Shown here in pieces: positions 40,460 through 64,000 of a stretch of 64,000 nt of DNA. Made by a program: the position numbers and the translations under genes. This DNA is from Halomonas sp. HAL1 (GTDB lineage Bacteria; Pseudomonadota; Gammaproteobacteria; Pseudomonadales; Halomonadaceae): contig NZ_CP130610.1 in the NCBI RefSeq assembly GCF_030544485.1, positions 3,782,001-3,846,000 on the forward strand. Direction: 5' to 3'. Every line of letters begins with the position of its first letter. Position 1 is the stretch's first letter. The notes under the pieces are model-generated. The model saw only the letters and a list, made by a program, of their open reading frames with translations. It was not told the origin of the DNA and did no database searches.

Positions 40460-41929
40460 CTATTTCAGCATTGCATGAGGGATCCACATCGCGATCTGCG
40501 GGTACATCGCCACAAGGATCAAAACGAAGATCTGGATTGCCACGAAAGGAATGATACCTTTGTAGATTTCTGAAAGCCTCACCTCAGGCGGGGCTACTGC
40601 CTTCAGGTAAAATAGTGACGGCCCCATCGGTGGTGTCATGAAAGAGGTTTGCAGATTGATGGCCAGCATGATGGCGAACCAGTACGCCAGATCGGCCCGC
40701 GCAATATGATCTCCGAAATCCAGGCTTAGGATAATAGGCGCGAACACAGGCAGGACGATCAGCGTGATCTCGATCCAGTCAAAGAAGAACCCGAGAATGA
40801 AGACCAGAGCCAATACCATAATCAACAAATGCCAAGGGGTCAGATCCATTGCGGTCACGACATCAGTTATCAAGTGCTCTCCACCCAGAAGTCGGAATGT
40901 CAAGGCGAAGGCCGTTGCTGCAATAATGATCATGAAGATCATACCCGTCGTCAGCGAAGCTGCCCGGGTTGCATGAAGAGTCGTGGACCACCAGCCACGA
41001 TTCTCAGCGGCAAAGCGTGCAAGCGGACCTCCACGCACTTCGTTGGCCGTCGCCCCCTCAATTGCAAATCGTGTGTAGCTGAGCAACGTATAAATACCTG
41101 GTCGCACCAGGAATGCCAAAGCAAGCGAACCGGCGGCGCCAATCCCTGCGGATTCCGTTGGTGTGGCCCAACCAAACACGATCGAGCCCAGCACCAAGAA
41201 GATCAGGAGAAACGCCGGCACAAGCCCCACAAGTAAAGTAATTATCAGCTGCGCCCAGTTAGTACTCCCAGCCCGTTCCTTTATTGGAGGCGCCGCGCTC
41301 GGTGACAGAAAGCTGACCACAAGGATATAAATCAGGTAAAGCACGCCCAGCAGAAGGCCTGGCCCGAAAGCCGCCATGAACATGGTGCCGACAGAACGCG
41401 AAAGCAAGTCCGCGATGATGACCAACATGATCGAAGGTGGAATCAGGATACCCAGTGTACCCGAGGCAGCAATGGTTCCGGTCGCCAGACGGATCGAATA
41501 TTTTTTTTCCAGCATCACCGGTAACGCCAGCAGAGTCAGCATCACGACAGAGGCACCGACTATCCCGGTGGCTGCTGCGAGGATGATACCCAGCAGCGTC
41601 ACTGAGAGTGCCAATCCACCTGGCACCTGTTGGAGCGCACGGTTTAGGCTGTTCAGCATATCTTTGGCAACACCGGTCTTTTCAAGCACCAGCCCCATAA
41701 AGACAAACAGCGGTATCGTCGTCAGCGTCAGGTTCTCAGCTGCCCCGGTCCACATACGCTGCGTGATGGTGTAAAGCTGGATGGGAACCAACTCTCCCAC
41801 AGCAATGCCGATAAGACCGAAGGCAATACCAACGCCTCCCAGCACGAAGGCTACCGGAAAGCCGCTAAAAAGTAGTACAGCCATCGTGCCGAACATGAAG
41901 ATCGGCAGATATTCCACGAATATACTCAC
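40460..41929 (-). CDS. dctM: TRAP transporter large permease (DctM)
   Basis: A 489-residue large membrane subunit of a tripartite ATP-independent periplasmic transporter, with about twelve helices. Typical motifs are MFGTMAVLLFSGFPVAFVLGG at the start, ATGTIAASGTLGILIPPSIMLVI in the middle and MTPPMGPSLFYLKAVAP near the end. It is longer than the usual 425-440 because of a cytoplasmic insert around residues 300-330. Its start overlaps the dctQ stop (ATGA), so translation is coupled. With DctQ it takes up an organic acid or related compound, driven by the sodium gradient. Confidence 0.94.
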   Translation of the reverse strand: MSIFVEYLPIFMFGTMAVLLFSGFPVAFVLGGVGIAFGLIGIAVGELVPIQLYTITQRMWTGAAENLTLTTIPLFVFMGLVLEKTGVAKDMLNSLNRALQQVPGGLALSVTLLGIILAAATGIVGASVVMLTLLALPVMLEKKYSIRLATGTIAASGTLGILIPPSIMLVIIADLLSRSVGTMFMAAFGPGLLLGVLYLIYILVVSFLSPSAAPPIKERAGSTNWAQLIITLLVGLVPAFLLIFLVLGSIVFGWATPTESAGIGAAGSLALAFLVRPGIYTLLSYTRFAIEGATANEVRGGPLARFAAENRGWWSTTLHATRAASLTTGMIFMIIIAATAFALTFRLLGGEHLITDVVTAMDLTPWHLLIMVLALVFILGFFFDWIEITLIVLPVFAPIILSLDFGDHIARADLAYWFAIMLAINLQTSFMTPPMGPSLFYLKAVAPPEVRLSEIYKGIIPFVAIQIFVLILVAMYPQIAMWIPHAMLK

Positions 41930-42471
41930 ATCTGCTCCCTTTCCTTGGCATCAAGATCGGCTATTTTTGGACTACTCATAGCCACGATCGCGCGTAGAGC
42001 ACGACTAATGCCGGCCAACGCCAGCAGATAAATACCCAGGGGTAGCATCGATTTGATCGCCCAGCGATAGGGCAGACCATCGATGGATTGGGAAACTTCA
42101 TTACGAACGAAAGATGTGTAAGCGAAATTTGTGGCATAGTAACCGGTCACTGCGCAGAACGGCAGTAGCAATAACAAGATGCCCAGCAGTTCAACTAAAG
42201 CACGGCGCTTAGGGCTGAAGGTCCCCGATACAAGGTCGATCCGCACATGCTGATCGTAGATATAGGTCGCCCCTAGGAAGCACATGATAAGGATAGTATG
42301 AAGATGCCATTCGGCTTCCTGCAACTGAGTTGACCCCATCTGAAACAAACGCCGCGTGACGACGTCGAAGACCACCACCACAATCAGCCCCAGCAGCGCA
42401 AAGGACGCGGTCTTGCCTAGACTAATCAGCAGTGCGTCTATCCCGTTGCTTATCTTAAGCATGGTTTTCAT
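41926..42471 (-). CDS. dctQ: TRAP transporter small permease (DctQ)
   Basis: A 181-residue small membrane subunit with four helices; family features are the segments TASFALLGLIVVVVFDVVTRR, EAEWHLHTILIMCFLGATYIY and DQHVRIDLV. The start at 42471 follows GAGGGGAAAGAC; an ATG eight codons upstream has no ribosome site. It overlaps dctM by four bases and lies about 170 bases downstream of dctP, with a GC-rich hairpin between. Confidence 0.92.
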   Translation of the reverse strand: MKTMLKISNGIDALLISLGKTASFALLGLIVVVVFDVVTRRLFQMGSTQLQEAEWHLHTILIMCFLGATYIYDQHVRIDLVSGTFSPKRRALVELLGILLLLLPFCAVTGYYATNFAYTSFVRNEVSQSIDGLPYRWAIKSMLPLGIYLLALAGISRALRAIVAMSSPKIADLDAKEREQM

Positions 42472-42583
42472 GTCTTTCCCCTCTCTAACAGGCATTCCAT
42501 TCTGCCGATCTCTTGCGCAGAGTCGGTGATGGCTGCACCAGCTGAGGTCGTGCCCCGACCAGCGGACAGGGCGCGACCTTCTC

Positions 42584-42609
42584 GATGGGCCCTACACAGG
42601 GCCCTCATC
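42584..42609 (-). promoter_or_regulatory. GC-rich hairpin between dctP and dctQ
   Basis: GATGGGCCC (42584-42592) and GGGCCC-TCATC (42599-42609) form a stem with one bulged base and a six-base loop. There is no T-run, so it is not a classical terminator. By position it could hold back read-through or protect the dctP message, giving more binding protein than permease. Confidence 0.5.
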
Positions 42610-44016: not shown

Positions 44017-45729
44017 TCACTCCTGATTCGCACCGGCTATATGTCGTGCTGCGATATATCCGAAAGTGATCGCCGGACCTAGAGTGATCCCCCCACCGGG
44101 GTAGTTGCCCCCCATAATCGAAGCGGCATCGTTACCTACTGCATAAAGGCCGGTGATGACCTTGCCGTACTCGTCCAACACCCGCGCATTCGCGTCAGCA
44201 CGCAACCCATCAAACGTCCCCAAGTCGCCTATAACCAACTTAACTGCGTAAAAAGGTCCTTTCTTGAGTGGGGCAACACAAGGGTTTGGCTTGTGCTCTG
44301 GATCACCCAGCGAACGGTTATAAGCTGTGCTACCCTTGTGAAACTCGGGGTCATTGCCATCCTTCGCGTGGTGGTTGAACTCAGCCACTGTCTTTTCCAA
44401 CTGGTCCGGATCTGCTCCGATTTGCTCGGCTAGATCGTGCAGCGTCTTGCCGCGTATCAGATAGCCATTCTTGAGATGCGACTTGTAGGGCATGGGTGCT
44501 GGCTTGGCGAAACCAATACCGTATTTTCTGAAGGTGCGATGATCGGCGATAAAGAAGGCGCAGACTTCCGACTGTTCTTCGGTGCAACGCGTGTACATCG
44601 CCTGACAGAAGTCGTGATACGAGTTCGCCTCGTTCACGAAGCGATGCCCCGAACGCGTAACTGCAATAATGCCGGGTTTTGACCTGTCCACGAAGTGTGG
44701 GAAGGTTCCTTGCGTGCCATCCGACCATACAGGCCGTGATATCGGCACCCAGGCGGCCGCATTTGGCAGGTCCTCCTGAACCGTCGCACCTACTCCCTCG
44801 GCCAGACGTAGACCGTCTCCAGTATTTCCCGGCGGCGCGGGCGAAGCATGTTCGTGGCCGCTCGCCGCATGGGGGAAAAGTTTCTTACGACGTTCGGGAT
44901 CCTGCGGGAAACCACCTGCCGCCATAACGACCCCCTTGGACGCATTCACCTGAACCATGCCTGTCGACGTATCAACCAGGGCGCCTGTCACCCGTCCGTT
45001 TTCGTCTCGGATCAGTTTACGCACATGGGAGCGTGTCCAGATCGGCACATCTTTGTCGAAACAGGACTTTACCAGCCGCGCGACCAGCGAGTTGCCGTTC
45101 ATGAGGCGCATTGCTCGGCCATGGAAAACCTTGTCACGCAGGAACTTCGCGAAGAGCCCGCAGACAAAAAGTGCCGAAACTGGAGACCGCGTGACATTGA
45201 AGAAGTGCAGCAGCTCCTTGCCGGATCCAATCATCATGCCCAGCACTGTGATTTCAGCTAGTGGTGGACGTAAACGCTTAATCTCGTCACCAAGCTCACG
45301 TCCGTCGAAGGGTCTAGCGACAATAGAGCGACCACCGGGCATCCCTCCTGGAGCATCGGGATGATAGTCCGCAAAGGTCGGCCCTAGATCGAACTGTAAT
45401 GTGGTGTTCTTTTCGAAAAATTCCACGGACTTGGGGCCGTTCTCCAGAAAAGCATCCACGCGAGCTGCGTCAAAGAACTCGCCCGTCTCGTGCTTCAAGT
45501 AGGTCTTTGCCTTTTCGGTGTTGTCCTCGACCCCGGCGCGTTTGCCAGGAGCATTTCCTGGAATCCACATCCAGCCACCCGAACGCGCCGTGGTACCACC
45601 AAAGACCGGTTCTTTCTCTACCACGAGAACCTTCTGATGGTGATGTGCCGCAACGACGGCCGTTGACAAACCTCCTGCCCCCGAGCCTACAACCAGCACA
45701 TCACAGTTATATTCTTTCATCTCATCCAT
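44017..45729 (-). CDS. FAD-binding dehydrogenase, 3-ketosteroid dehydrogenase-like
   Basis: A 570-residue flavoprotein of the FAD_binding_2 / KstD group. The N-terminal dinucleotide fold is VLVVGSGAGGLSTA (G15-G20) with VVEKEPVFGGTTARSGGWMWIP. Residues that match the KstD active site are Tyr122 in FADYHPD, a Tyr in RFVNEANSYHDF and Tyr543 with Gly547 in NYPGGGITLGP. Enzymes of this group desaturate a ring next to a keto group or catalyse related redox steps. It has a paralogue at 61328-63049. Start: ATG 45729, or ATG 45720 which would space better from AAGGA. It is 240 bases upstream of dctP on the same strand, so probably the same substrate. Confidence 0.85.
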   Translation of the reverse strand: MDEMKEYNCDVLVVGSGAGGLSTAVVAAHHHQKVLVVEKEPVFGGTTARSGGWMWIPGNAPGKRAGVEDNTEKAKTYLKHETGEFFDAARVDAFLENGPKSVEFFEKNTTLQFDLGPTFADYHPDAPGGMPGGRSIVARPFDGRELGDEIKRLRPPLAEITVLGMMIGSGKELLHFFNVTRSPVSALFVCGLFAKFLRDKVFHGRAMRLMNGNSLVARLVKSCFDKDVPIWTRSHVRKLIRDENGRVTGALVDTSTGMVQVNASKGVVMAAGGFPQDPERRKKLFPHAASGHEHASPAPPGNTGDGLRLAEGVGATVQEDLPNAAAWVPISRPVWSDGTQGTFPHFVDRSKPGIIAVTRSGHRFVNEANSYHDFCQAMYTRCTEEQSEVCAFFIADHRTFRKYGIGFAKPAPMPYKSHLKNGYLIRGKTLHDLAEQIGADPDQLEKTVAEFNHHAKDGNDPEFHKGSTAYNRSLGDPEHKPNPCVAPLKKGPFYAVKLVIGDLGTFDGLRADANARVLDEYGKVITGLYAVGNDAASIMGGNYPGGGITLGPAITFGYIAARHIAGANQE

Positions 45730-46693
45730 CCTTCTGTCCGGCTCCGGCCCGAACCCGAGCCGAAAAAATCCGTTACCGGAGAGAGGCTAGGGACGATCAT
45801 AGGAGCGCCAGCAAGTCTTTAAGAAACCAACAACACGAGGCTTCCTCCTCTCTCCTTCCTTCACCCATCCACATGCGCGAATTGGGCTACCAGATCGTCC
45901 CAGGGACGTACGAATACTCTATCTAGCTCGCACCCGGCGGCAATCTTCGATTGCACAAAATTTACTCTTAGCGAATTGATTCGTCAATGGGGAATAACAT
46001 AGACCAAGGGAGGGGGTGGTGGCTCAGAGCAAAGAAACAGACGTGGTAAGTACTTCAGCCCTTAACTAAAAGCTTGCCATGTCAGAAAAGCCGGGAGCCC
46101 TTTCAAGACATTTCCACGAGAAAGGCGAGCTTTTGGCTTCCCTAATATTGGTCCGAGCTCAGGCCAGATGCCCATACCGCTATGCTGAGTTTTACCATAA
46201 ATACCGCCACGTTTTCGGGCAGGAAGTAGTCGTCACCCATATTCTGTAAGCTGGGCTATAGGAAGCCGGCGTACCATCAAAATTAACGAACCCAGACTTA
46301 TAAAGAGGCAAGCAGATATAAAAAGCTAGTCTGGGCGCGTTTTAATGCGACGCTGTTCACGTCGTCAGTCAACAATGTGAACTAAGCAGTTTTGATAACG
46401 GCCAGCCAAAGTCTTCCCAGATCGAAATTACCCTTGCCCACGACGCGGCCACCGAAACTCATTAGTAGCTGTACACGGCAGAGCGAGAGTATAATTCTTG
46501 GTCATAACGAATGGATCAAAACGAGAATAGCAACATATCGGCGTCGGGCAGCGCTGTCTTCAATCAACAAGCGCCCACGCAGGAAATAGCATGGTTACAG
46601 ATCAGCATCCGTCATGTGTATTAATGAAAAATTCTGTTTCTGATGACTTGCACATACGAGAGAATCAGGCGAACTAAATTGTAGGAGATGTAC
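45730..46693. other. Long gap between divergent flavoprotein and IclR genes
   Basis: No gene I can support. It includes the divergent promoters of the flavoprotein gene (-) and the first IclR gene (+). A weak resemblance to insertion-sequence proteins in 46140-46260 (RYAEFYHKYRHVFG) may be transposase debris. The ribosome site GTAGGAG of the IclR gene is at 46681-46687. Confidence 0.4.
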
Positions 46694-47497
46694 ATGGCAA
46701 AAGACGATCACGCCGCACGGGGTATAAAGTCGATCGCGGTTGGAGGTCGGCTGCTGCAAGCGCTCATAGATTCATCAAAACCCCTGACCCTACGGGAAAT
46801 TGCCGCCAGAGCCGAAATCACCCCAGCGCAGGCCCACGCTTATCTGGTCAGTCTTAAACGTGTCAGTATGGTTGTTCAACAGTTCGAGTCAGGCCCCTAC
46901 CTGTTGGGGCCAATGGCGCTTCAAGTAGGGCTCAGTAGACTTAGGAGCCTAGCTGTTTTCCGTCGTGCCAGCACGCTGCTCAAAGAGCTCTCGAACAGCC
47001 TGAACGTCATGTCCGTGCTCTCGGTATGGGGAGCCAAAGGGCCGACTGCCGTAATGGTCGTGCAAGCCCGAGATAAACGCAGTGACCTGAACATCCGTAT
47101 GGGCACACAATTTTCGGTGCTGAACTCTGCCACTGGCCGAGTGTTTGCCGCCTTTGAGAACCCTCTGCAGGTGAAAATGCAGTTGAAACTGGAGCTGGAG
47201 CGTAATCCACCCCCAAATTATCAGACGGAAGTTCAGAGCATGGAAAAATACTGGGAACAAATCGAAAGCATCCGAGAACAGGGCTTCAGTACGATCCAAG
47301 GTTTAAGGGTGCCTGGAATCGATGCAGTGTCGGTACCTATCTTCGACGAGCACAAAGAATTCACTGGCGCGGTGACCTGCGTGGGTCACACCGATACTCT
47401 GGACATTGAACCCGCCGGCGAGAGCATCCCCGCTATCCTAGCTGGTGTGCGCTATATGCACTTAGCGACAGCGCAGCCTGTTAAACATTCGACCTAG
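46694..47497 (+). CDS. IclR-family transcriptional regulator (first of a tandem pair)
   Basis: A 267-residue regulator with an N-terminal winged helix (about residues 12-75, SKPLTLREIAARAEITPAQAHAYLVSLKRV) and an effector-binding domain to the C-terminus (LGPMALQVGLSRL, SVLNSATGRVFAAF, VSVPIFDEHKEFTGAVTCVG). IclR proteins usually control neighbouring catabolic genes. The start at the second ATG follows GTAGGAG by six bases. It is divergent from the flavoprotein-dctPQM group and 30 bases upstream of a second IclR gene. Confidence 0.92.
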   Translation: MAKDDHAARGIKSIAVGGRLLQALIDSSKPLTLREIAARAEITPAQAHAYLVSLKRVSMVVQQFESGPYLLGPMALQVGLSRLRSLAVFRRASTLLKELSNSLNVMSVLSVWGAKGPTAVMVVQARDKRSDLNIRMGTQFSVLNSATGRVFAAFENPLQVKMQLKLELERNPPPNYQTEVQSMEKYWEQIESIREQGFSTIQGLRVPGIDAVSVPIFDEHKEFTGAVTCVGHTDTLDIEPAGESIPAILAGVRYMHLATAQPVKHST

Positions 47498-47527: not shown

Positions 47528-48331
47528 ATGTCCAGTAAGTCACAGAACTCTGAGGGACGAGGCGTCCAATCCATCGAGATCGGCACCCAGTTATTGGAAG
47601 CGCTCGTCACCTGCGGCGAGCCAATGATGCTGAAGGAGTTAGCCGCCGTAGCTGGCATAGCACCTGCTCAGGCCCACCCATACCTAGTCAGCTTCCGAAA
47701 CCTCGGCATGGTGGAACAGAACGGTCCTGCTGGGCGCTACCAGCTGGGGCCCTTTGCATTGGATCTAGCGATCACACGGATGCGGACGGTCGATCCAATG
47801 CAGTTGGCTGAGCAAGCAGTGGCTGAACTTTCACTGGAAACCGGCCTGACGGTGCTCCTATCAGTTTGGGGAGCCTTCGGCCCGACTGTTGTGGTCGTGC
47901 ACGAAGGCGAGGATCAGATTCACATGAACACAAAGGTCGGGACAGTTTACTCGGTCACCGGTACAGCGACTGGCCGAATTTTTGCGGCCTACCTTCCTCC
48001 AAATCTGATTAACCCATCCATGCGCTCCAACCTGCCGAAATCTTTTCTCGAACGATGCGTGGGCACCCCGCAGCCTTATGACGAGACAGATATCGCCATG
48101 ATACGAAAGACTGGCATTTCTTCGGTTCCAAACCCGCCAGTACGTGGTATCAACGCCATCGCCTCGCCGATCTTCGATCATCTCGGACAGATACTCGCCG
48201 TAGTTACACTAGTGGGCGATGCCCGCATTCTCGTAAAAGCACCTACATCAGCTTTTGCCCGCAAACTAGTCGAAGCGACACGCCGATTGTCATCAGAGCT
48301 CGGCTATTGGGACGAAGAGAAACCCCAGTGA
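47528..48331 (+). CDS. IclR-family transcriptional regulator (second of a tandem pair)
   Basis: A 267-residue paralogue of the preceding gene, sharing the layout motif by motif (MMLKELAAVAGIAPAQAHPYLVSFRNLGMV; YQLGPFALDLAITRMR; YSVTGTATGRIFAAY; IASPIFDHLGQILAVVTLVGD). The effector domain differs enough to suggest a different ligand or altered dimer partner. It is followed 90 bases later by a short-chain dehydrogenase gene on the same strand, a likely target. A heterodimer of the two regulators is possible but unproven. Confidence 0.92.
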   Translation: MSSKSQNSEGRGVQSIEIGTQLLEALVTCGEPMMLKELAAVAGIAPAQAHPYLVSFRNLGMVEQNGPAGRYQLGPFALDLAITRMRTVDPMQLAEQAVAELSLETGLTVLLSVWGAFGPTVVVVHEGEDQIHMNTKVGTVYSVTGTATGRIFAAYLPPNLINPSMRSNLPKSFLERCVGTPQPYDETDIAMIRKTGISSVPNPPVRGINAIASPIFDHLGQILAVVTLVGDARILVKAPTSAFARKLVEATRRLSSELGYWDEEKPQ

Positions 48332-48419
48332 TTATTATTTTATTGTGAACTAATTATCTATCGTATAATCTTTGAACATGAATGACTGATGGATTGCCAT
48401 GTTTGAGGAGAAATATAAT

Positions 48420-49166
48420 ATGAAATTGAAAGATAGACTGGCCGTCGTGACGGGAGCCGGGCAGGGTGTTGGCGCCTGCATCGCAAGAGGACTTGCCGAT
48501 GAGGGCGCGCGGGTTATCTTGGCCGATATCCAATTGGAGAACGCTGTAAAAATTGCTGAAGAGATTCGCAACTCCGGAGGTGAAGCATGGGCCTATGCAC
48601 TTGATGTCACCGATGCCGAAGCCTGTACCGCGCTGGCAGAAACAGTCAAACAGCACGGGGACGTATCGTTACTGATTAACAATGCAGGTGTCTGCCCACG
48701 CAATACGATCGACAGCCCCGATGTCCGTGAAACATGGGCGCTCGGCATGAGCGTCAATCTCGATGGCACACTCAACATGATCCTTCCCTTCGTCCCCGTG
48801 CTGCGGAAGACCAAGGGCGTAATCATTAATATGGCCTCTATTGCCTCATTTGTTTCGACCGCCACGTCGATCTCCTATTCGACTTCGAAATCGGCAGTGA
48901 AGATGCTAACCCAGAACCTCGCTGCTGAACTTGGCAAGGACGGGGTACGCGTTAATGCAGTAGCCCCAGGCACACTGGTCACTCCGATGACCGAAGCCAC
49001 CCGCAACAATGACGAGCGTCGGGAGCGGTTTCTGTCGCGAATCCCAATGGGCAGATTCGGCGACCCGAAGGAAATCATCGGTCCAATCATCTTTCTTGCA
49101 TCTGACATGTCAACTTACGTAACCGGTGCGACCATCGTAGTGGATGGTGGCTATCTGACCACCTGA
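48420..49166 (+). CDS. Short-chain dehydrogenase/reductase
   Basis: A 248-residue classical SDR. Cofactor motif TGAGQGVG (TGxxxGxG), NNAG, catalytic Ser in INMASIAS, and YSTSK with the catalytic Tyr and Lys are all present; the acidic residue at the end of the second strand (LADIQ) favours NAD. It probably oxidises a hydroxyl to a ketone or the reverse. Start: ATG 48420, nine bases after GAGGAG; an ATG at 48399 would put the ribosome site inside the gene. Its stop codon touches the end of a decayed group II intron lying on the other strand. Confidence 0.92.
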   Translation: MKLKDRLAVVTGAGQGVGACIARGLADEGARVILADIQLENAVKIAEEIRNSGGEAWAYALDVTDAEACTALAETVKQHGDVSLLINNAGVCPRNTIDSPDVRETWALGMSVNLDGTLNMILPFVPVLRKTKGVIINMASIASFVSTATSISYSTSKSAVKMLTQNLAAELGKDGVRVNAVAPGTLVTPMTEATRNNDERRERFLSRIPMGRFGDPKEIIGPIIFLASDMSTYVTGATIVVDGGYLTT

Positions 49167-49167
49167 A

Positions 49168-50609
49168 TTGAGAAGAAGGGGGAATTTCTTCCCCCGCCTT
49201 TACACCACCGTACGCACCGTTCGGTATACGGCAATTCTTAAAGAAAGTGTAAGCCATCTAATCGGATGGAGTACCGAGATCAGCCCTTGCCGTTGAACCA
49301 CTTTCGCGGCAGAAACTAATTCATGTGCGATGCCCAGCCTTCTACCAGCAGCCTCGACCATTCCATGCCGATTACCAGACATGATATGCACCAGTCCTAG
49401 CACTAGATGCTTCCGACAACGCGTCTTTCGCTTCCACTGGTGCAAAATCAAGGCGCGCAATCGACTATTTCTCCACTGATCCAACGTTTCAAGCGGACGC
49501 TTCACATCAACTCAATCGAAGTAGTTAGTCTAGCCCCGATGGATCGGCGTCAGCTTTTCGAAGATGCGCCAAATGTGGCGCCAGTAGGCAGGCCATACAG
49601 GAATAGTCCGGCCTTCAGGTAGCGGAGTAGGATCAGATACAGCACTCGTTTGTCGCTAACGCGCGTGCTACCCGTGCCATTAGCAGGTCGAGGTCGAACA
49701 ACCACCGGTGGTCCTCGTCGACGCCTTCATGGCCGAGATAGTTTGCATGATCAAAGATCGGCATCGTTATCTATGACGGCACTTGCTGGATCAGCTGGTC
49801 GGTGATCGTGGGGATACCGAGCTGTCGCGTCCTGCCTTTAGGCTTGCGGATCGTAACGGATGGGGCTGGGGGATATCCTTCGGCCAGTAGCCGCTTACGC
49901 AGCCTTGTACGATGCTGCTTAGATGATCAAATGATGCATCGTCATGCCCTCAACACTCGATGCCCTTTGTGAGCGGTAAGCTCGGCTCGCTGCATGCTGT
50001 CTGGGCAGAAGCCCCTTTCCATGACGATCGCGGCTGATTCCACTTTCGTCCCGATAGCGATGCAGGAGTCGTCTAGAAGCTCACCCTCTGAGGTGCGGGT
50101 TCCGTCACTAACCCTCAGGGGAAGTGGCGGCAGTAGCGCCATAGTCTGTCTTCATGATCGATCCTTAAGACGTTATCGCCTACTCGCGGTTCTTCATGTT
50201 CGGCCACCATTGTTGCCACGGAGATCTAGCACTGACTATGGCCTCGGCTAACTTCTGCCGACCCATCCCATCGCTGGTAGCATCGTGGCAGGCCACCAGA
50301 CAGCCTTTCAGGGTAAGATGCGCGGCCTTCCCGCTTACGCCTGACAGATTTACGGCGTGGCATTCCGTGCAAGTACCGGGATTTGATAATTGTGGCCATC
50401 TCACCCCGCCATCACGCCTCGTGACTGCTTCCTTTTCGTCAGGCCAGCGTTTGCCTTATGACTCAGTCAGATACACTTTCGCGAGGGAGACCCTTGCCGG
50501 TGGCTAGCACTACACCTTGCAGTGTGCACAGGGAATCTGCCCCCAAATCACCCTGAAGCACCACCCTCAGGAACAACATAAGTCAAGGTGCTACGCGCTT
50601 TGTCTGATG
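49168..50609 (-). pseudogene. Decayed group II intron with maturase remnant
   Basis: Minus-strand relic related to the intact intron next to it. Domain V/VI-like sequence lies at about 49170-49250 (GTGCGTACGGTGGTGTAAAGGCGGGGG), and the maturase C-terminus is recognisable (VKRPLETLDQWRNSRLRALILHQWKRK, QGLISVLHPIRW). Upstream, RT pieces are broken by many frameshifts, while the 5' RNA region around 50160-50600 (including GTTCGGCCACC, GGTACTTGCACGGAA complements) is still similar. The extreme 5' end is missing; it stops where the 3' end of the intact intron begins. Confidence 0.8.
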
Positions 50610-52599
50610 ATCGAGTAGGAAGGGGAGTCACCTCCCCCGTCCTCTCACACCACCGTACGCACGGTTCCGTATACGGCGGTTCATGAAGAACGTTTAAGCC
50701 CTCTTACCGTCTCCAATACCGAGATCAGACCCTGATCGTAAAACCACTTTCTCGGCAGGGCTTGGTTCATGTGCGATGCCCCGGCGTTCCACCAGGGGCC
50801 TCGCCCATTACCCGCCGATTTCCAAGCGCAGGGCGCGTCCAGACCCAGTCCTCGAAGGTTCCGGTGCCGAGTCTGAGGGCGTTTCCATTGCCGCCAGAGC
50901 AGGCCGCGTAAGCGCCGTCGTATCCATTGATCCAGCGCTTCCAGTGGGCGCTTCACATCAACGAGGTCAAAGTAGTTGGCCCAGCCTCGCAGGATGGGCT
51001 TTAACTCTTTGATCACTTGCTGGAGGTGACGCCCCCTACCACGCTTCAGTATCTCACGGACACGCTGCATCATACGCTTCAGGCTGGTCTTGGCTAGCGT
51101 CAGTTTCGACTGCTTGTGCCGAGTAAGACTGTAGCCTAGATAGTCGCGTTTCCATGGCCGATCCACCGCACTTTTCCGGCGATTGACCGTCAGCCGGAGT
51201 GAGCTCTCGAGATACTCACTCAAGCTTTCCATGACACGTTCGCCTGCCCGCCGACTTTTGATATACACCTGCACATCATCGGCGTAGCGGCAGAAGCGGT
51301 GGCCTCGGTGTTCCAACTCCTTGTCCATGTCGTCCAGCAGGATGTTCGCCAGCAGCGGGCTGAGTGGCCCGCCTTGGGGCGTCCCCTGCCTTCTCGGCGT
51401 GGGGAGACCCTGCTGGAACATGCCCGCCTCCAGGTAACGACGGATCAGACGCAGCACGCGCTTGTCGTCAACGCGCCGCGCGACCCGGGCCATCAGCAGG
51501 TCGTGATTCACTCGGTCGAAGAAGGCTTCCAGGTCAAGGTCGACCACCCAACGGTGGCCAGCGGTAACGTGAGCCTTCATGGCCGAGACGGCCTGCTTGG
51601 CACTCCGCCTGGGGCGGTAGCCGTAACTTGACTCAGAGAAGAGCGGGTCGAAGATCGGCATGAGCACCTGGGACAGCGCTTGCTGGATCAGCCGGTCAGT
51701 GACTGTGGGAATGCCGAGTTGCCGTACGCCGCCTTTAGGCTTGGGGATCGTGGCCGCTCGGATTGGGCTGGGGTGATACTCATCGGCCAGCAGCCGCTCA
51801 CGCAGCGTTGGCCAGTACTGCTTTAGGTGGTCGGCTAACTGATGTACCGTCATGCCTTCGACACCTGGTGCCCCTTTGTTGGCCACCACCTTACGGTAAG
51901 CTCGCTCCATGTTCTCCGGGTCAACGACCCGCTCCATGAGCGAGGTTGGCTCCGCTTTCGTCCACGATAGCGACGCCGGGATCGTCTCGACGCTCACCGG
52001 CCGGGACGCGGGGTACTGCCCTTGCCCCTCTGGGTGAGTGACGGTATTAGCGTCGGTTTCTGTCTTCATGATCGAGCATCGAGACGTTATCGCCTACTCG
52101 CGGTTCTTCATGTTCGGCCCTTGGTGCCGTGGTGAACCGGCACTTACTATGGCCTCTGCTGACGTCTGGTGATCCATCCCGTCGCCTCTTGACGCCGGTA
52201 GCACAGTGGCAGACCACCAGACCTCCCAGGGTAAGACGCGCGACCTTCCCGCTTATGCCTGTCGGATCTACGTCATGGCGTTCCGTGCAAGTACCGGGCT
52301 TTGATGATGATGGCCATCTCACCCCGCCATGCCGCCTCGTATCCGCTTCCTGTTCAGCTAGGCGCCCCCGTCGAGCCAGCGTTTTGCCTTAGGCTTCCTT
52401 CAGATTCCACCTCGCGGGAGACACCCTTGCCGTTGGCTAGCACTTCCCCTTGCCGGGCGTGCAGGGGACTTCCACCCCCAAGTCATCCTGCGGCACCACC
52501 CACAGGAATAGCGCCCGTCAAGGCGCTGCGCGCCATGCCTGGCGCACCACCAAAAGAGCCCGGAGCATTCCCCGAGCTTTCTGATTTGCCGCGACGCAC
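50610..52599 (-). mobile_element. Group II intron, intact-looking
   Basis: About 2.0 kb on the minus strand. The 5' end is GTGCGTCGCGG (52599), next to the stop codon of the EthD gene. The RNA 5' domains occupy about 52070-52599; the maturase gene is in domain IV. Domain V is visible as GAACCGCCGTATACGG...CCGTGCGTACGGTGGTG around 50650-50690, followed by a GC-rich domain VI hairpin ending near CTACTCGAT at 50610. The intron is antisense to nothing coding, lying in the gap between two catabolic gene groups. Confidence 0.82.
50681..52069 (-). CDS. ltrA: Group II intron reverse transcriptase/maturase
   Basis: A 462-residue intron-encoded protein with RT domains 0-7 (IPKPKGGVRQLGIPTVTDRLIQ; YRPRRSAKQA; VVDLDLEAFFDRVNHD with D177; TPQGGPLSPLLANI; YADD at 262-265) followed by the maturase/thumb region (RGWANYFDLVDVKRPLEALDQW). 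No HNH endonuclease domain is present, so mobility would rely on nascent DNA at replication forks or on RNA-DNA pairing alone. The catalytic YADD is intact, so it appears active. Confidence 0.94.
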   Translation of the reverse strand: MKTETDANTVTHPEGQGQYPASRPVSVETIPASLSWTKAEPTSLMERVVDPENMERAYRKVVANKGAPGVEGMTVHQLADHLKQYWPTLRERLLADEYHPSPIRAATIPKPKGGVRQLGIPTVTDRLIQQALSQVLMPIFDPLFSESSYGYRPRRSAKQAVSAMKAHVTAGHRWVVDLDLEAFFDRVNHDLLMARVARRVDDKRVLRLIRRYLEAGMFQQGLPTPRRQGTPQGGPLSPLLANILLDDMDKELEHRGHRFCRYADDVQVYIKSRRAGERVMESLSEYLESSLRLTVNRRKSAVDRPWKRDYLGYSLTRHKQSKLTLAKTSLKRMMQRVREILKRGRGRHLQQVIKELKPILRGWANYFDLVDVKRPLEALDQWIRRRLRGLLWRQWKRPQTRHRNLRGLGLDAPCAWKSAGNGRGPWWNAGASHMNQALPRKWFYDQGLISVLETVRGLKRSS

Positions 52600-52601
52600 A
52601 C

Positions 52602-53297
52602 TTAGACAATTTTTCGTGTTTCGACGAAATAGGGAGTGATCGTGTCGAGGAAGACTTTGGCGTGCTCCTGCGTCTTGGCCACAATGTCGCTAGCATAGAG
52701 CTCAGCCGCCTCTTCCTTATTGCGAAACCAGAACTCAACAATTCCGTCCACCGGCACCTCATTATAAGTAGCATTTTCAGTGCGCGAGCCTTGGTGACGA
52801 TCGACTACTAGGTTCTGGCGATAGCCCAACACCTTCGGCCATTGACGAACAAAATTTGCATGATTTACCAACCATTCATGGCGGAACTCTTCGGGGCTAA
52901 TGCCCGGCAAGCGCCTGAGCAGAGTCATACGCTTAACAAACGAGCCCTCTCCCAGGTTCACGGGCACAACCTCGTGCTTCTCGCAGGCAACGAGGCTGAC
53001 ACTGTCGAGGAATTCGATCTCATCAACTAGCGCGGGCGCGAAGGTATCGCCGTTGACGGCTTCCAGCATCGCCTCCATGTCGTCGAAATGAAGCTCTGAA
53101 AAGCCATCCAGGTCCCAATAATCACCGCGTGAATGAGTGATACCGAACTGCTCCTTGTCAACTACCGCATGCTGCCAATAGCCTCTTAGCCCTGGAAAAC
53201 GTGCAGCCATGAGGCCATGCACCAGATGCCAGTGTTCGTTAAACGCCTCGGTTGATAAACCTTTGCGTTTTGTCAACAACCCAAATCGCGTGATCAT
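52602..53297 (-). CDS. Tandem EthD-domain protein
   Basis: A 231-residue protein with two copies of the EthD (dimeric alpha-beta barrel) fold: residues about 1-105 (FGLLTKRKGLSTEAFNEHW, VHG) and 115-225 (RMTLLRRLPGISPEEFRHEW, VNH). Each copy keeps the F-x-x-x-W...H pattern typical of the family. EthD-like proteins are found in degradation pathways of ethers, terpenes and polyketide-like rings, but their reaction is rarely known. Start: AAGGAG six bases before the ATG. The OYE gene ends 28 bases upstream on the same strand, so they form an operon. The group II intron begins directly after its stop codon. Confidence 0.87.
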   Translation of the reverse strand: MITRFGLLTKRKGLSTEAFNEHWHLVHGLMAARFPGLRGYWQHAVVDKEQFGITHSRGDYWDLDGFSELHFDDMEAMLEAVNGDTFAPALVDEIEFLDSVSLVACEKHEVVPVNLGEGSFVKRMTLLRRLPGISPEEFRHEWLVNHANFVRQWPKVLGYRQNLVVDRHQGSRTENATYNEVPVDGIVEFWFRNKEEAAELYASDIVAKTQEHAKVFLDTITPYFVETRKIV

Positions 53298-53325: not shown

Positions 53326-54501
53326 TTACTCGGATTCGCTCAGACGACTCAGCACCTTATGCCTCCGGTCAAGCCACTCACGGTGCTGCAACGGCCAAGA
53401 GCTGAAGTCTTCGGGCCCACTCAATACGCGCGTCGCTTCGGCGGGCCAGTAGGGCGTGCGCAACAACTCGCGGCCGAGCGCAACCAGATCCGCCTTGCCG
53501 CTGGCCACGATCTCATTGGCCTGCTCGGGAGTCAGAATGATGCCAACGGCCTGCGTCATAATTCCTGCTCGGCGGCGTACCTCTTCAGCGAAGGGCACCT
53601 GGAAGCCAATGCCGCGCGGCACGTTGCTACGCCGCGTCTCTTCCGTCAGCCCTCCCGAAGAACAATCAATCACGTCAACACCGACCGCCTTCAAGGCAAG
53701 AGCCAGAGCCACGGTATCCTCCATCCCCCAACTACCTTCCGCCCCATCTAGACAGGACAGGCGGGCAAACAAAGGTTTGTCGTCGGGCCATACTTCGCGC
53801 ACTGCTTGTGCCGTCTCGACGGCAAAACGCATCCGGTTTTCCAGCGACCCACCGTATGTGTCGGTTCTCTGGTTCGAGAGAGGTGACAGAAAACTGGCCA
53901 GCAAGTAACCATGACCGAAATGCAGCTCTATTACATCAACGTCCGCCTGGTCGGCCCTTTTGGCCGCTGCCACGAAATCCTCCCGTATCTCTTCAATCTC
54001 ACTTTGCGTCAACATCTCGGGTTCGGACCATTCGCCGCTAGCCGCGATGGCACTTGGCCCCACGCGTCGCCATTGAAGGCCGCTGGCATCGAGCGCCTCA
54101 ATGCTTAGCGCCCTTCCCCCTTCCCATAGCGGCTCTGAAAATGCTTTACGTCCAGCATGAGCTAGTTGGAGGCCGAAGGCCGTATTATTGGCATGGGCAA
54201 AATCGCTCAGCCGTTTCAGCCCCGGCACATGATCGTCGGACCAGATACCTAGGTCCGCCACTCCGACTCTGCTGTCGCTTCTGACGGCTGTGCTTTCGGT
54301 TAGCACTAGCCCTGCACCGCCCAAAGCGAACTTACCATAATGGACGATGTGCCAGTCCTGCACAGCACCGTCCACCGCCGAATGCTGGCACATGGGTGAG
54401 ACGGTCATCCGGTTCTTAAGCTTCAATCCCCTTAGAGATAACGGCTGAAGAAGGGACGGTTGATCCTGGGTCGAGACATCACAAGTATCAAGCACCGACA
54501 T
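53326..54501 (-). CDS. NADH:flavin oxidoreductase, Old Yellow Enzyme family
   Basis: A 391-residue FMN ene-reductase of the YqjM/XenA-like class. Visible residues are C38 in PMCQHS (flavin-tuning cysteine), LAHAGRKA with His115, the substrate-binding pair H194/H197 in ELHFGHGYLL, and RTDTYGGSLENRMRF. It should reduce an activated C=C bond or participate in ring transformations with NAD(P)H. In most relatives the pair lies in HAAHGYL, so the Phe-Gly variant here may change the pocket. Start: GAGGAAACAGT before the ATG. It is upstream of, and probably co-transcribed with, the EthD gene. Confidence 0.92.
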   Translation of the reverse strand: MSVLDTCDVSTQDQPSLLQPLSLRGLKLKNRMTVSPMCQHSAVDGAVQDWHIVHYGKFALGGAGLVLTESTAVRSDSRVGVADLGIWSDDHVPGLKRLSDFAHANNTAFGLQLAHAGRKAFSEPLWEGGRALSIEALDASGLQWRRVGPSAIAASGEWSEPEMLTQSEIEEIREDFVAAAKRADQADVDVIELHFGHGYLLASFLSPLSNQRTDTYGGSLENRMRFAVETAQAVREVWPDDKPLFARLSCLDGAEGSWGMEDTVALALALKAVGVDVIDCSSGGLTEETRRSNVPRGIGFQVPFAEEVRRRAGIMTQAVGIILTPEQANEIVASGKADLVALGRELLRTPYWPAEATRVLSGPEDFSSWPLQHREWLDRRHKVLSRLSESE

Positions 54502-58334: not shown

Positions 58335-59155
58335 AGCCATCTCAACGCCGAGAGATGGCAAAAAATGCAGTTGATGCCGATCGCTGCAGTGTACGGCTGG
58401 CCTGTGTGGCCTTTGGTATCAGTGAGACCTGTTATCGCTACCGGGCAAAGCTGAGCCATGAGAACGCGGTGATTGCCGACTGGCTGGTGCGTTTAACCCA
58501 TAACCAGCGTAACTGGGGGTTTGGGCTGTGTTACCTGTATCTGCGCAACGTGAAGGGCTTCGGCTGGAACCATAAGCGCATCTACCGGATTTACCGGGAG
58601 CTGGAGCTTAACCTGCGGATCAAGCCCAAGAAGCGACTGGTGCGGAAAAAGCCGGAACCCTTGTCGGTACCGCAGGTTCTGAACGGCTGTTGGTCTATGG
58701 ACTTCATGCACGACCAGTTGGCAGACGGCCGAACGTATCGATTGTTCAACGTGCTCGATGACTACAACCGGGAAGGTCTGATCATCGATGCAGACTTCTC
58801 GCTGCCGGCAGAGCGCGTAATACGCTCTCTCACGCAGTTGATCGAATGGCGCGGCAAGCCAAAAGCCATTCGCTGTGACAACGGCCCGGAATACATCAGC
58901 GGTAAGCTCGTTACCTGGGCAAGGCAGGAAGGCATTGAACTTCGATATATCCAGCCGGGGAATCCGCAGCAGAATGCTTATGTTGAACGCTACAACCGAA
59001 CAGTCCGTTATGATTGGTTGAGCCATTATCTTTTCGACTCGATCGCTGAAGTACAGGATTTTGCCACACGCTGGCTCTGGACGTACAACCACGAGCGACC
59101 GAACATGGCATTGGGTGGGATAACACCGAAACAGAAGGTGGCCATGGCGGCCTAA
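58328..59155 (+). CDS. IS3-family transposase OrfB (integrase core)
   Basis: A 275-residue catalytic subunit. DDE residues are in [20 protein letters not shown] and [12 protein letters not shown]; an HTH_21-type region ([19 protein letters not shown]) precedes them. The frame is intact, so this copy could still transpose. GTG at 58328 is a formal start in the overlap with orfA; production through frameshifting is likely. Remnants of a related OrfB lie at 35598-36021. Confidence 0.94.
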
Positions 59156-60279
59156 CCAACTCTACTTATCGCTTCGGTTATAAATGGGGGGATTACCCCC
59201 CGAGTAGCCACGAGACGATTGATCCACTGATGAAGAGGGTCGTCTTTTCCTGCCGCACACCTGACAGCAGCCCTGGCACCATGGATAACCAGACCTCGAA
59301 CGTAAGGATCGCCCCGTTTCGTGATGCCCAGTAGTACATTGCGTCCGCCCGTACTGAACTGCTTAGGCACCAACCCCAAGGCGGCCGATGCATCCCGTCC
59401 GCGAACAAACTGCTTGCCATCACCCATCCAGCTTTTCACCGCTTTGCTGACAATGGGGCCAAATCCGGGGATTTTTAGTAACCGTTGGCAGACGGCGTCC
59501 TGCCGAGTGTCGTGCTTCAGTTGATCATTGTACCAAGCCAACTCCTCGTCTACCGCGACCAGTCGTGAATACTGGCGATGCAGCAAGGTTCGCATTCTCT
59601 CGGTCAAATCATTGCGCGTATCATCCAGGATACCGGGTAGTGCTTTTCTCAAGACGCCATTTCCTTGCTTCAGAACCAGGCCATATTCTGCGAGTAGCCC
59701 GCGAACATGGTTGATCAATCGCGTGCGCTCTGCCGACAGATGCCTGCGCATCTGCAAGAAGGTCTGTTCATCTTGATGCTCGATAGTCTTGATGGCCACT
59801 GGCCGGATGGCCCCATGTTGGCTGGCTTCGGCAATCGCCTGCGCATCGTTGTAATCGTTTTTCTGACCGCGTAGGTACCCTTTGACATGTTGAGCCGGTA
59901 GCAGCTGTACACGATGGCCGAAATGTTGAATCTCACGTGCCCAGTAGTGAGAGGATGCACAGGCTTCCATGGCCACCGTACACACGGGTTGCTGAGCCAT
60001 GAAATTCAGAAGTTTGGCTCGAGTGAGTTTGGTTCTTCCTTCACGCTTGCCTTGCGGGCTGAGAGTCACCAGGTAGAAGCTGCTTTTGGCCAGGTCAATG
60101 CCGATTGTCCTATGCTTATTCATGGTCTTCTCCTGCTCATGCAGATAGTGGATGTCACCTCTATCTTGGCGCACTATGACGCCGGTTTGGAGTGGGAGGA
60201 GACCATCTCATCAGTACCTGCGGTCAAGCCTCTTGAGTATTCCCCCTGTAGCACCTGTGCCGATGTTCGATAGCCGCGA

Positions 60280-61327: not shown

Positions 61328-63049
61328 TTAAACAGCCTCTTCTTTGTAATTTTCTGAGGCTCTTTTAGCTTCAGAAGCATCACGGCCTACAATATAGCCA
61401 AATGCCAATGCGGGCCCCAGGGTAATGCCAGCACCTGGGTAAGAGCCTGCCATAATAGAGTTCATATCATTACCACAGGCGTAAAGCCCAGGGATAACTT
61501 TATTTTCTTTATCCAGAACCCGTCCTTTTTCGTCGGTTGCAAGACCCATGGAAGTCCCGATATCCCCTGGATATATCTTGATAGCATAAAACGGTGCTTG
61601 CTCAAGAGGTTTCAGGCAAGGGTTAGGCTCATGCTCAGCATCGCCCAAATAGGTTTGATAGTCTGTAGAGCCCTTTCCGAATTCTTGGTCAGTCCCTGTG
61701 CAAGCATCTAAGTTGAAACGCTTAACAGTCTCAATTAAGTTATCTGAAGGCATGCTTAGCACCTCAGCCAATTCCTCGAGCGATGTTCCCCTCTTCAAGT
61801 AACCGGTGCGTAATTGATTCTTGAAAGGGGAAGGGAATGGCCGGACTGGGCCCAAACCATATCTTCTCAATGTCTGATGATCACACACCAGCCAAGCTTC
61901 ATGAACCTCTTCTTCAATCATGCCAGTCACGAAGTCATGGTAAGACACCGCTTCATTAACAAAGCGTCTACCATCCAAATTCACAGCAATAACACCCGGT
62001 TTGGCTCGATCGAGAAACAAATGGGGAAATGGTCGTTCACCGTGCTGACTGGGAATTAGTGATACTGGCGCCCAGAATCCGGCATGTTTATTAGTCTTGA
62101 CGAAGTGAGCTCCAATGGCTTCAGCGGCTTCAATTGCAGTCCCTATCGCCGGCTTGGGTGACATTGAGTAATGCTTAGAGCCAGCCTGGACATGTGGCAT
62201 AACACTCTTACTTAAATCACCATTTCCAGGAAATCCTCCAGTGGCAAGCACTACGCCATGCTTGGCGAGAATCTCTCGTCCATCATTGGTATGAAAGCCC
62301 ACAACTTTATCGGCTTCGACCTTGAGAGAAGCCAGCGCCACTTCGGTGAATATCGGGATTTCTTTTTCTATCGCTGAATAGGCCAGTCGCCCTGCAATCG
62401 CCTGACCCAACGTAAGCCGGGTGCCACGTGAATAGAGTAATCGGTCCCGAGCATGTCTAAGGAGAAGGCGGAACGCATGCCACGCCGATGCTGGCTTCCT
62501 CGTAATGTTCATGAAGTGACCAATGTCAAACCGGTTAAGCATCATGCCACCGAAAATAGTAAAATCTTCAATTGGAGGCTTAAGGCGATTGAATTGCTTC
62601 TTTAAGAGGCGCCCATCAAAAGTCTGCGCATCTAATACTCTACCGCCAAGCGAAGCTCCAGGTTGGTCTGAATGATAATCAGGAGAAAAAGTCCTGTGTT
62701 CGAATTTTAGGTAAGTATTCTCCTCCATGAAACCCACCATTTCAGGGCCCGCCTCCAGAAAGGCCCTTACCAAACTAGGATTCAGCAGTTCGCCGGTCTC
62801 ATTAGCAATATAGTTATAGGCCTCGTCTCGATTATCAGTCATTCCAGCTGCACGCATTTTGGGGTTATCCGGTATCCATATCGCCCCTCCAGATACAGCC
62901 GTCGAACCACCAAAGTAAGAATCCTTCTCGAAAACAGCAACTTTCATACCTCCGAAGTGAGCGACTAGAGCTGCAGTCATACCAGCTGCTCCAGAACCGA
63001 TCACTACTAAATCATATTCGCTGTCTGGAAAGTCATTGCACATGCTCAC
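61328..63049 (-). CDS. FAD-binding dehydrogenase, 3-ketosteroid dehydrogenase-like (second copy)
   Basis: A 573-residue paralogue of the protein at 44017-45729. The dinucleotide fold is LVVIGSGAAGMTAALVA with VFEKDSYFGGSTAVSGGAIWIP; KstD-like residues are the Tyr in FSPDYHSDQPG, the Tyr in RFVNEAVSYHDF and Tyr537/Gly541 in SYPGAGITLGP. It should be a cytosolic or peripheral flavoenzyme acting on a cyclic ketone. It overlaps the upstream SDR gene by four bases (ATGA), so the two products are made together, and a further SDR gene lies upstream in the same operon. Confidence 0.87.
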   Translation of the reverse strand: MSMCNDFPDSEYDLVVIGSGAAGMTAALVAHFGGMKVAVFEKDSYFGGSTAVSGGAIWIPDNPKMRAAGMTDNRDEAYNYIANETGELLNPSLVRAFLEAGPEMVGFMEENTYLKFEHRTFSPDYHSDQPGASLGGRVLDAQTFDGRLLKKQFNRLKPPIEDFTIFGGMMLNRFDIGHFMNITRKPASAWHAFRLLLRHARDRLLYSRGTRLTLGQAIAGRLAYSAIEKEIPIFTEVALASLKVEADKVVGFHTNDGREILAKHGVVLATGGFPGNGDLSKSVMPHVQAGSKHYSMSPKPAIGTAIEAAEAIGAHFVKTNKHAGFWAPVSLIPSQHGERPFPHLFLDRAKPGVIAVNLDGRRFVNEAVSYHDFVTGMIEEEVHEAWLVCDHQTLRRYGLGPVRPFPSPFKNQLRTGYLKRGTSLEELAEVLSMPSDNLIETVKRFNLDACTGTDQEFGKGSTDYQTYLGDAEHEPNPCLKPLEQAPFYAIKIYPGDIGTSMGLATDEKGRVLDKENKVIPGLYACGNDMNSIMAGSYPGAGITLGPALAFGYIVGRDASEAKRASENYKEEAV

Positions 63050-63816
63050 AGCTCCTCCTCCGGCCTTGGGTATCGACCCATCCCCCAGCCTCCATCAACC
63101 CGTAAAATCTCACCATTTATGAAACTGGCATCTTCGCTGGCCAAGAATACTATGGCACGCGCAACCTCATCGGATTGACCGACACGACGAAGAGGCGACT
63201 GCTCAACAAAAATTTGCTTGCGCCAGCGTTCCGTACGAATACGCTCCGCTGTCAGAGGAGTCTCGATGAGGCCGGGAGCGACAGCATTGACACGAATGCC
63301 ACTGGGTCCATAATCGGTTGCCATCTGCCTAGTCAATGACGCAACGGCCCCCTTGGAGGAAGAGTAGGCAGAACTAGAAGTTGCGCCTACTTCCGCATAG
63401 ATGGAAGCCACATTGACGATGGCACCATGTGACTGTTTTTTCATTTCGGTGATAGCTAAACGACTCAATCTGAAAAGCGATACAATATTAATTTCAAGAA
63501 AATTTCTGAGCGATTCATCCGATGTACTGAGAACACTATCCCCGCCTCCCATCCCTGCATTATTGACGAGGATCGACAGCTCACCACCAATGACATGCAG
63601 GGCCTCAGCAACCTTGATTTCTAAGTCAGTATCCGTCAAATCGGACTCTAGGGTGTAGATCTTGTCAGCGGAGGAATTTCTCAAAAGCATCAATCCATTT
63701 TCGTCACGATCAATTGCAATAACGCTCATTCCTTTATCCGCTAAGAATGATGCTGTCGATTTTCCAATGCCAGATGCTGCTCCGGTGACGATGGCAACTT
63801 TATTTTTACTGCTCAT
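63046..63816 (-). CDS. Short-chain dehydrogenase/reductase
   Basis: A 256-residue classical SDR: TGAASGIG cofactor loop, acidic D in AIDRDENG (NAD preference), NNAG, VNVASIYAEVG with the catalytic Ser region, and YSSSK. The C-terminal DGGWGMGRYPRP tail is slightly longer than usual. Start: GAGGAACCTTAA before the ATG; the ribosome site overlaps the stop of the upstream SDR gene, ten bases away. Its stop overlaps the flavoprotein start. A pair of SDRs with a ketosteroid-dehydrogenase-like enzyme suggests successive alcohol oxidation and ring desaturation. Confidence 0.93.
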   Translation of the reverse strand: MSSKNKVAIVTGAASGIGKSTASFLADKGMSVIAIDRDENGLMLLRNSSADKIYTLESDLTDTDLEIKVAEALHVIGGELSILVNNAGMGGGDSVLSTSDESLRNFLEINIVSLFRLSRLAITEMKKQSHGAIVNVASIYAEVGATSSSAYSSSKGAVASLTRQMATDYGPSGIRVNAVAPGLIETPLTAERIRTERWRKQIFVEQSPLRRVGQSDEVARAIVFLASEDASFINGEILRVDGGWGMGRYPRPEEEL

Positions 63817-63826
63817 TTAAGGTTCC

Positions 63827-64000
63827 TCATATATTCGTAACGCCGCCAAGAGAACGACCACCATCTACTAACATTACTTGTCCAGTTATGAATCTGGCTT
63901 CGTGTGAGGATAGGAAATTCACTGCTCCCGCAATGTCATCCGCAGATCCCAGCTGTCCCATTGGCTGCATGCTCCTCAAGGCATCAAGATCAGTATCCGA
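63827..64000 (-). CDS. Short-chain dehydrogenase/reductase, C-terminal part (5' end outside window)
   Basis: The last 57 codons of an SDR are visible on the minus strand and open to the window edge. They show MGQLGSADDIAGAVNFL and FITGQVMLVDGGRSLGG, the typical SDR end with the VDGG turn. The catalytic part lies outside. It is the first visible member of an operon with the SDR and flavoprotein genes downstream. Confidence 0.9.
   Translation of the reverse strand, partial: SDTDLDALRSMQPMGQLGSADDIAGAVNFLSSHEARFITGQVMLVDGGRSLGGVTNI

Follow-up and report, generated by a model that had tools for sequence, protein, structure and literature searches.

Which compound is handled by the two flavoproteins resembling 3-ketosteroid dehydrogenases (KstD) whose genes stand amid mobile DNA in one stretch of the Halomonas sp. 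HAL1 genome? The window analyzed here, C1:3782001-3846000, is the whole of that stretch, 64,000 nucleotides from a two-contig genome of 4.44 Mb (G000), and it carries the genes in three groups: group 1 (40.5-49.2 kb), group 2 (52.6-54.5 kb) and group 3 (from 61.3 kb). An earlier note on this DNA had taken them for a single broken catabolic cluster, and all the genes that it named are indeed open reading frames of the families and at the places it gave. We found that groups 1 and 2 are one cluster split by group II introns, whereas group 3 looks like a separate, similarly built operon beside it. Based on sequence comparison, we lean slightly towards the reading that groups 1 and 2 would encode an upper pathway in which a hydroaromatic carboxylate is taken up, its ring is aromatized by the first flavoprotein, K1, and the product drains to homogentisate.

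Groups 1 and 2 form a single cluster

Group 1 consists of two divergent transcription units. The reverse strand encodes K1 (44017..45729) and a complete tripartite ATP-independent periplasmic (TRAP) transporter, with the solute-binding protein DctP (P1, 42642..43772), the small permease DctQ (Q1, 41926..42495) and the large permease DctM (M1, 40460..41929), which scored 142.5, 63.2 and 224.6 bits with their Pfam models, all above the gathering scores. On the forward strand lie the genes of two IclR regulators, I1 (46688..47497) and I2 (47528..48331), both with Pfam domains IclR_C and HTH_IclR, and of the short-chain dehydrogenase/reductase (SDR) S1 (48399..49166; adh_short_C2, 201.8 bits). The spacer between the K1-TRAP and IclR-SDR units, 45730..46687 by the gene coordinates, can be aligned in part with Halomonas organivorans and is likely the control region. 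Group 2, on the reverse strand, holds a gene for an EthD-EthD protein (ETH, 52602..53297), matched by the Pfam EthD model in two stretches, and one for an ene-reductase of the old yellow enzyme family (OYE, 53326..54501; Oxidored_FMN, 225.7 bits), whose best solved relatives are 8uaj and 3hf3.

The genes for OYE, EthD, S1, I2, I1, K1, DctP, DctQ and DctM are contiguous in H. organivorans (L057) and 76-89% identical to those of the window (DctM, 89%), and a nucleotide comparison revealed identical gene order at 77-79% identity. Because all nine genes stand there together in the same order, groups 1 and 2 are one cluster. The gap between S1 and EthD measures 151 bp in H. organivorans, whereas in the window it spans 49167-52601 and contains two tandem group II introns of about 3.4 kb together (reverse strand, 49200..52560, ends approximate). 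Their identity was indicated by four Rfam matches above gathering scores and by the RVT_1 and GIIM domains of the maturase frame. The two copies are repeats spaced about 1.9 kb and about 80% alike; the first (about 49.2-50.6 kb) is decayed, and the second (about 50.65-52.55 kb), with an open reverse transcriptase/maturase frame at 50681-52069, is the younger. By eye, the gap in H. organivorans contains a terminator-like hairpin, and the insert of the window stands beside what remains of it; the tandem introns sit between convergent genes, near terminator-like sequence. A gene of the major facilitator superfamily (window 38084-39286), which may be part of the module, adjoins the cluster also in H. 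organivorans (72% identity at the DNA level).

In Billgrantia zhangzhouensis (L013), OYE, S1, I2, I1 and K1 follow the same order as in the window, with a TRAP set of another type (38-44% identical to that of the window). Matches to K1 at E ≤ 1e-200 were found in three of 250 genomes of the family, namely HAL1 itself, a Billgrantia genome (G574) and G620. A search of 82 genomes of the genus gave a best K1 match outside HAL1 of only 51% identity, whereas K1 and the TRAP proteins of the cluster share 70-86% identity with their counterparts in the alphaproteobacterium Mangrovicoccus (L014). This difference argues for horizontal acquisition of groups 1 and 2 as a catabolic module.

K1 and K2 resemble ring dehydrogenases

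K1 and the second flavoprotein, K2 (61328..63049, reverse strand, group 3), had been described as ring-dehydrogenase-like, and the test of their grouping with fumarate or urocanate reductases came out against the latter. Both scored hundreds of bits more with KstD- and ChcC2-type models than with those of flavocytochrome c or tricarballylate dehydrogenase; K1 reached 593.8 bits with ChcC2 and 178.9 with flavocytochrome c. The best solved relative of each is the 3-oxosteroid 1-dehydrogenase 7p18, with 356 bits for K1 against 116 for the urocanate reductase 6t85. The four KstD catalytic residues (Y122, Y371, Y543 and G547 in K1), whose roles in KstD1 are treated in excerpts of PMC5348764, are kept in all 82 aligned sequences, K1, K2 and 80 relatives. 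On account of these model scores, structure relatives and kept residues, the prediction that K1 and K2 are ring dehydrogenases acting beside a keto group is well supported.

With 3-ketosteroid dehydrogenases as closest solved structures and the KstD residues conserved, K1 and K2 might be taken for true members of that family serving a steroid or bile-acid pathway. However, the likeness to KstD (7p18, 4c3x) is one of fold-level sequence relationship and catalytic residues, and the KstD cut-offs were missed widely: K1 scored 461.8 bits with PRK07843 (cut-off 788) and 493.2 with PRK12844 (cut-off 789), and K2 413.6 and 459.6, respectively. The surroundings are those of a small-acid pathway, and the 60 kb that follow the window, which is as far as the search for steroid-degradation genes extended, showed none that could be recognized. 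A steroid pathway is hardly credible here, and the steroid or terpenoid substrate proposed in the earlier note found no support.

Among the 25 NCBIfam models shown, K1 exceeded only the cut-off of PRK06134 (809.5 bits, cut-off 747), which NCBIfam names only 'FAD-dependent oxidoreductase', and K2 exceeded none. The nearest named model of K1 that describes a ring acid is ChcC2, from the type of system found in Sinomonas cyclohexanicum, whose chc cluster converts cyclohexanecarboxylate to 4-hydroxybenzoate (PMC9795900, excerpts). As these excerpts present it, the logic is alike: a ring alcohol becomes a ketone and KstD-like desaturases then produce a phenol. Good scores were obtained for K1 and K2 with the ChcC2 model and for S1 with ChcB models, but all Chc cut-offs were missed by the window proteins (ChcC2, cut-off 900, with 479.4 bits for K2; ChcC1, cut-off 1000, with 338.1 for K1 and 340 for K2). 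Groups 1 and 2, unlike chc, are without a P450, and their OYE and EthD would be further differences.

By analogy with the chc route, K1 could yield a benzoate-type phenol or phenylacetyl-CoA, with the protocatechuate or paa pathway as the sink. The HAL1 genome does have pcaGH and, 9-27 kb beyond K2, a paa cluster with the coenzyme A (CoA) ligase gene paaK. In another genome of the genus (G031:C66:1-40000, L125 and L126), four KstD-like genes that are 50% identical to K1 stand beside pca-type and QuiC-type genes. They adjoin genes for an intradiol dioxygenase, a class II dehydroquinase and shikimate-dehydrogenase-like proteins, with TctC-type binding proteins recognized by eye and a QuiC-like gene at 756 bits, under its cut-off of 1200. 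Since these relatives keep company with protocatechuate-, dehydroshikimate- and dehydroquinate-type genes, the set looks like a parallel module with another sink, and flavoproteins of the K1-type subfamily may be used for several hydroaromatic acids that drain to different sinks. Which sink the relatives of K1 accompany was examined through their neighbours.

Homogentisate genes recur near relatives of K1

The neighbourhood of K1 was surveyed with tblastn (E ≤ 1e-15, at least 45% of the query) at 80 loci, the best 80 of 125 K1 relatives from a scan of genome contigs; of these loci, 26 extend over less than 19.5 kb. An S1-type SDR was found at 72 loci, an SDR standing within 600 bp of K1 at 64, followed by an I2-type IclR regulator (54), DctP and DctM (53 each), a metallo-beta-lactamase (MBL)-fold protein (21), EthD (16), MaiA and FahA (10 each), OYE (9), a vicinal oxygen chelate (VOC) protein (6) and HmgA (5). 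Twelve loci, with eight genus labels, have at least one of HmgA, FahA and MaiA; counting VOC, which adds L042 and L069, homogentisate genes lie within about 10 kb at 14 loci, against about 0.4% per locus expected by chance. By coordinates hmgA lies just outside the locus, presumably on the same contig, in L027, L081, L082 and L083; hmgA was matched four times in the genome of L081. As a control, PcaG and PcaH were found at none of the 80 loci, although pcaH is present in 38 of the 48 genomes, drawn from 49 K1 loci, that were searched for hmgA and pcaH. A catechol-dioxygenase-like protein occurred at two of the 80 loci, PaaK at three, PaaE and PaaZ at one each, and PaaA and PaaC at none. K1 is thus linked to homogentisate genes recurrently, above chance and above the pcaGH control. 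The neighbours of the K1 relatives point to homogentisate rather than to protocatechuate, the sink of the chc route, and with the Chc cut-offs missed as well, the protocatechuate or paa pathway is an unlikely sink.

Some neighbours tend to occur together. In Fisher tests, whose p values are uncorrected and come from loci related by descent, EthD went with OYE (p = 4e-6) and with homogentisate genes (1e-4), MBL with homogentisate genes (4e-7), and EthD with the absence of TRAP genes (0.003). Microvirga loci L081 and L082 carry on one strand FahA, MaiA, an ATP-binding cassette importer (recognized by eye), IclR, S1, EthD, K1, OYE and MBL, and L083 has the same order without a MaiA match; FahA and MaiA of L082 exceed their cut-offs. 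At the Celeribacter litoreus locus (L040), the neighbours of S1 and K1 are VOC, MBL, FahA, MaiA, HmgA and an acetoacetate-CoA ligase, of which FahA, MaiA, HmgA and the ligase are above cut-offs, MBL is above none and VOC is without NCBIfam match. One strand of the Salipiger locus L042 encodes OYE (81% identical), EthD (74%), DctP (75%), DctQ (71%), DctM (84%) and VOC.

HmgA was detected in 45 of the 48 genomes searched; at E ≤ 1e-80 there was no match in those of L053 and of the two Marinobacterium loci, L017 and L077. Both Marinobacterium K1 clusters have a VOC gene between MBL and FahA (L017:16155-16694 and L077:16156-16695), whose product is 66-70% identical to the other VOC proteins. Its closest solved relative, with 281 bits, is PDB 9u42, which is titled homogentisate 1,2-dioxygenase from Acinetobacter. 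The structure model was poor (predicted local distance difference test score, pLDDT, 51.9), so only its best match was used, which is the same as that of the sequence search. VOC is likely a homogentisate dioxygenase and possibly a non-cupin replacement of HmgA in Marinobacterium, which would explain why FahA and MaiA stand in the K1 cluster of genomes without HmgA match.

The HAL1 genome has its own homogentisate genes, and the expectation that the pathway continues beyond the window was borne out. In the stretches past the window end (L002, L003 and L004), paaK lies 19 kb out, with its paa cluster between the window end and hmgA, and hmgA, fahA and maiA follow at 33-36 kb, hmgA starting at 33 kb. 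The single hmgA match, fahA, maiA, an MBL gene and a flavin hydroxylase gene of the PRK08132 subfamily form a set at L003:10970-17162, and HmgA (678.9 bits, cut-off 510.75), MaiA (305.4, cut-off 171.05) and FAA_hydrolase (120.8, cut-off 23.9) all exceed their cut-offs. In H. organivorans, a gene for an 85% identical relative of this MBL protein lies 4 kb away from the DctM gene of the K1 cluster, which links that cluster with the hmg set. According to excerpts of PMC9338888, Halomonas strains use 4-hydroxyphenylacetate or tyrosol via homogentisate. The pathway is also fed by peripheral hydroxylases such as MhaAB (PMC3053370, excerpts). The MhaAB-type routes of those excerpts share the sink genes with the system described here, and the PRK08132-type hydroxylase gene of HAL1 (L003:12096-13868) adjoins hmgA; they start, however, from compounds that are already aromatic, whereas here a ring desaturase is linked.

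A different role for the same neighbours would be repair: OYE, SDR, MBL and K1 could deal with the oxidation products of homogentisate, such as benzoquinone acetate or quinone adducts related to it. Redox enzymes of the OYE and SDR families do stand with homogentisate genes in several genomes. Yet the dedicated importer and the IclR pair fit a feeding pathway better, as does the fact that most loci have K1 with SDR and TRAP genes and no homogentisate genes, and we regard a repair function as quite improbable.

A putative route to homogentisate

In the feeding pathway that we favour, DctPQM, recognized by transporter family, would import the carboxylate, and the IclR pair between the two divergent units would likely exert control. 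S1 would oxidize a ring alcohol to a ketone, OYE would saturate or shift a misplaced ring double bond, and K1, as its conserved KstD residues suggest, would strip hydrogens beside the keto group until the ring becomes a phenol. To judge from the neighbours in other genomes, the product would be homogentisate itself or a hydroxyphenylacetate that precedes it by one step, and the cleavage in HAL1 would fall to HmgA, MaiA and FahA, encoded in their distant set; in other species the ring would be cut by HmgA or the VOC-type dioxygenase encoded near K1. Methylmuconolactone isomerases figure among the three solved relatives of EthD (E about 2e-5), and a lactone may accordingly be what this protein handles. 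The analysis shows the protein families, gene order, catalytic residues and linkage, whereas the chemical steps are all inferred.

Several observations weigh against this route. Homogentisate genes were not seen at 66 of the 80 K1 loci in the stretch examined, which is short at the 26 loci mentioned, and the commonest arrangement is TRAP, SDR, K1 and IclR without EthD or OYE. Because of the relatedness of the loci, the chance figure given above makes the case look stronger than it is. Homogentisate genes near K1 go with the absence, not the presence, of TRAP genes (Fisher p = 0.02). A distance of 51 kb separates hmgA from K1 in HAL1 itself, and the two genes lie on different contigs in G574 and G620. 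In Billgrantia (stretch L013:5347-7614), only a remnant of about 200 bp is left of EthD. Finally, the molecule name of 9u42 is 'Glyoxalase', its dioxygenase label coming from the title only.

A broader proposal, which we put forward tentatively and would sooner doubt than accept, is that of a mobile aromatization pathway not described before, in which a KstD-like enzyme would turn an imported hydroaromatic C8 acid into homogentisate in several alphaproteobacterial lineages, Marinobacterium and Halomonadaceae, some hosts cutting the ring by the VOC-type homogentisate dioxygenase and not by HmgA. The C8 acid would be a hydroxy- or oxo-cyclohexyl or cyclohexenyl acetate, perhaps derived from a lactone that the MBL-fold protein would open and EthD would handle; these substrate candidates are guesses. 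A search of the open-licence literature yielded no description of this gene set.

Group 3 looks like a separate operon

The K2 set reads outward from K2 through the SDR genes S2 (63046..63816, reverse strand, assigned by family match) and S3 (63827..64000, reverse strand, truncated at the end of the window but complete in L002:827-1573) to P2, M2, Q2 and S4, with divergent GntR and glutathione S-transferase genes, all of these outside the window (L002:1613-6913). It is whole in G574 (77-88% identical) and G566 (42-58%), where the place of S2 is kept; in G589 the order is changed and no S2 gene was called. At E ≤ 1e-160, K2 was found in four of 250 genomes of the family: HAL1, G574 (82%), G566 (49%) and G589 (48%). 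A wider search found it in one of 369 genomes of the class, its own, and a search in the class of a Celeribacter genome in one of 385, at 48%. This last relative (G714) was left out of the comparison of gene order because gene calling at its locus was poor. In G574, K2 is followed by an OYE gene of its own, 43% identical to that of the window.

This operon bears directly on the proposal that all three groups descend from a cluster devoted to one acid of alicyclic, terpenoid or steroid-like kind. Only mobile DNA separates the groups in HAL1, as the earlier note had observed, with the introns between groups 1 and 2 and transposase genes and relics between groups 2 and 3, and K1 and K2 occur together in two of the three family genomes that have K1. 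The second spacer (54.5-61.3 kb) contains an IS66 relic (55587-55874), an rve-type transposase (58328-59155), an IS110 transposase (59152-60174) and, at 60.5-61.1 kb, fragments without Pfam match that were taken by eye for an IS30 relic. Against common origin, K2 begins a conserved operon of its own; K1 and K2 lie on different contigs in G574, where their distances from the contig ends put them at least 118 kb apart; and the family search reported no K2 match for H. organivorans, although the K1 cluster is complete there. The base composition differs too: the G+C content is 0.481 where the K2 set lies in the window and 0.470 past the window end, against 0.535-0.557 in the pieces of groups 1 and 2 and 0.538 in the first 30 kb. 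Given its conserved order, its lower G+C content and its place on another contig in G574, group 3 looks like a neighbour of the cluster; a common origin holds for groups 1 and 2 and is not supported for group 3, and the single ancestral cluster is largely refuted and very improbable.

A P450 as chc-like partner of K2 was considered, because a P450-reductase fusion encoded in HAL1 at L004:12766-15117 has an 86% identical relative near K2 in G589. This argument was dropped because the fusion occurs in nine of 121 genomes of the family, of which only HAL1 has a reported K2 match. The K2-type set of G589 (L102, G589:C1:2625000-2644999) adjoins that relative of the fusion, a DctP and a flavin hydroxylase, and these neighbours are related to HAL1 genes lying at least 100 kb to the right (L004). 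At L004:5825-7285, two adjacent open frames (252 and 207 amino acids) appear by eye to be two halves of one sodium symporter, perhaps through a frameshift. On the left border of the window's cluster, an IS21 pair (31.5-34.0 kb) and a DDE transposase (36.1-37.1 kb), together 31523-37118, separate it from ordinary chromosomal genes.

Implications

If the proposed route is correct, it would be a non-aromatic entry into the homogentisate pathway and would give the flavoprotein subfamily PRK06134 a testable function. The spread of the module in marine, halophilic and soil bacteria suggests that its substrate would be a common alicyclic carboxylate.

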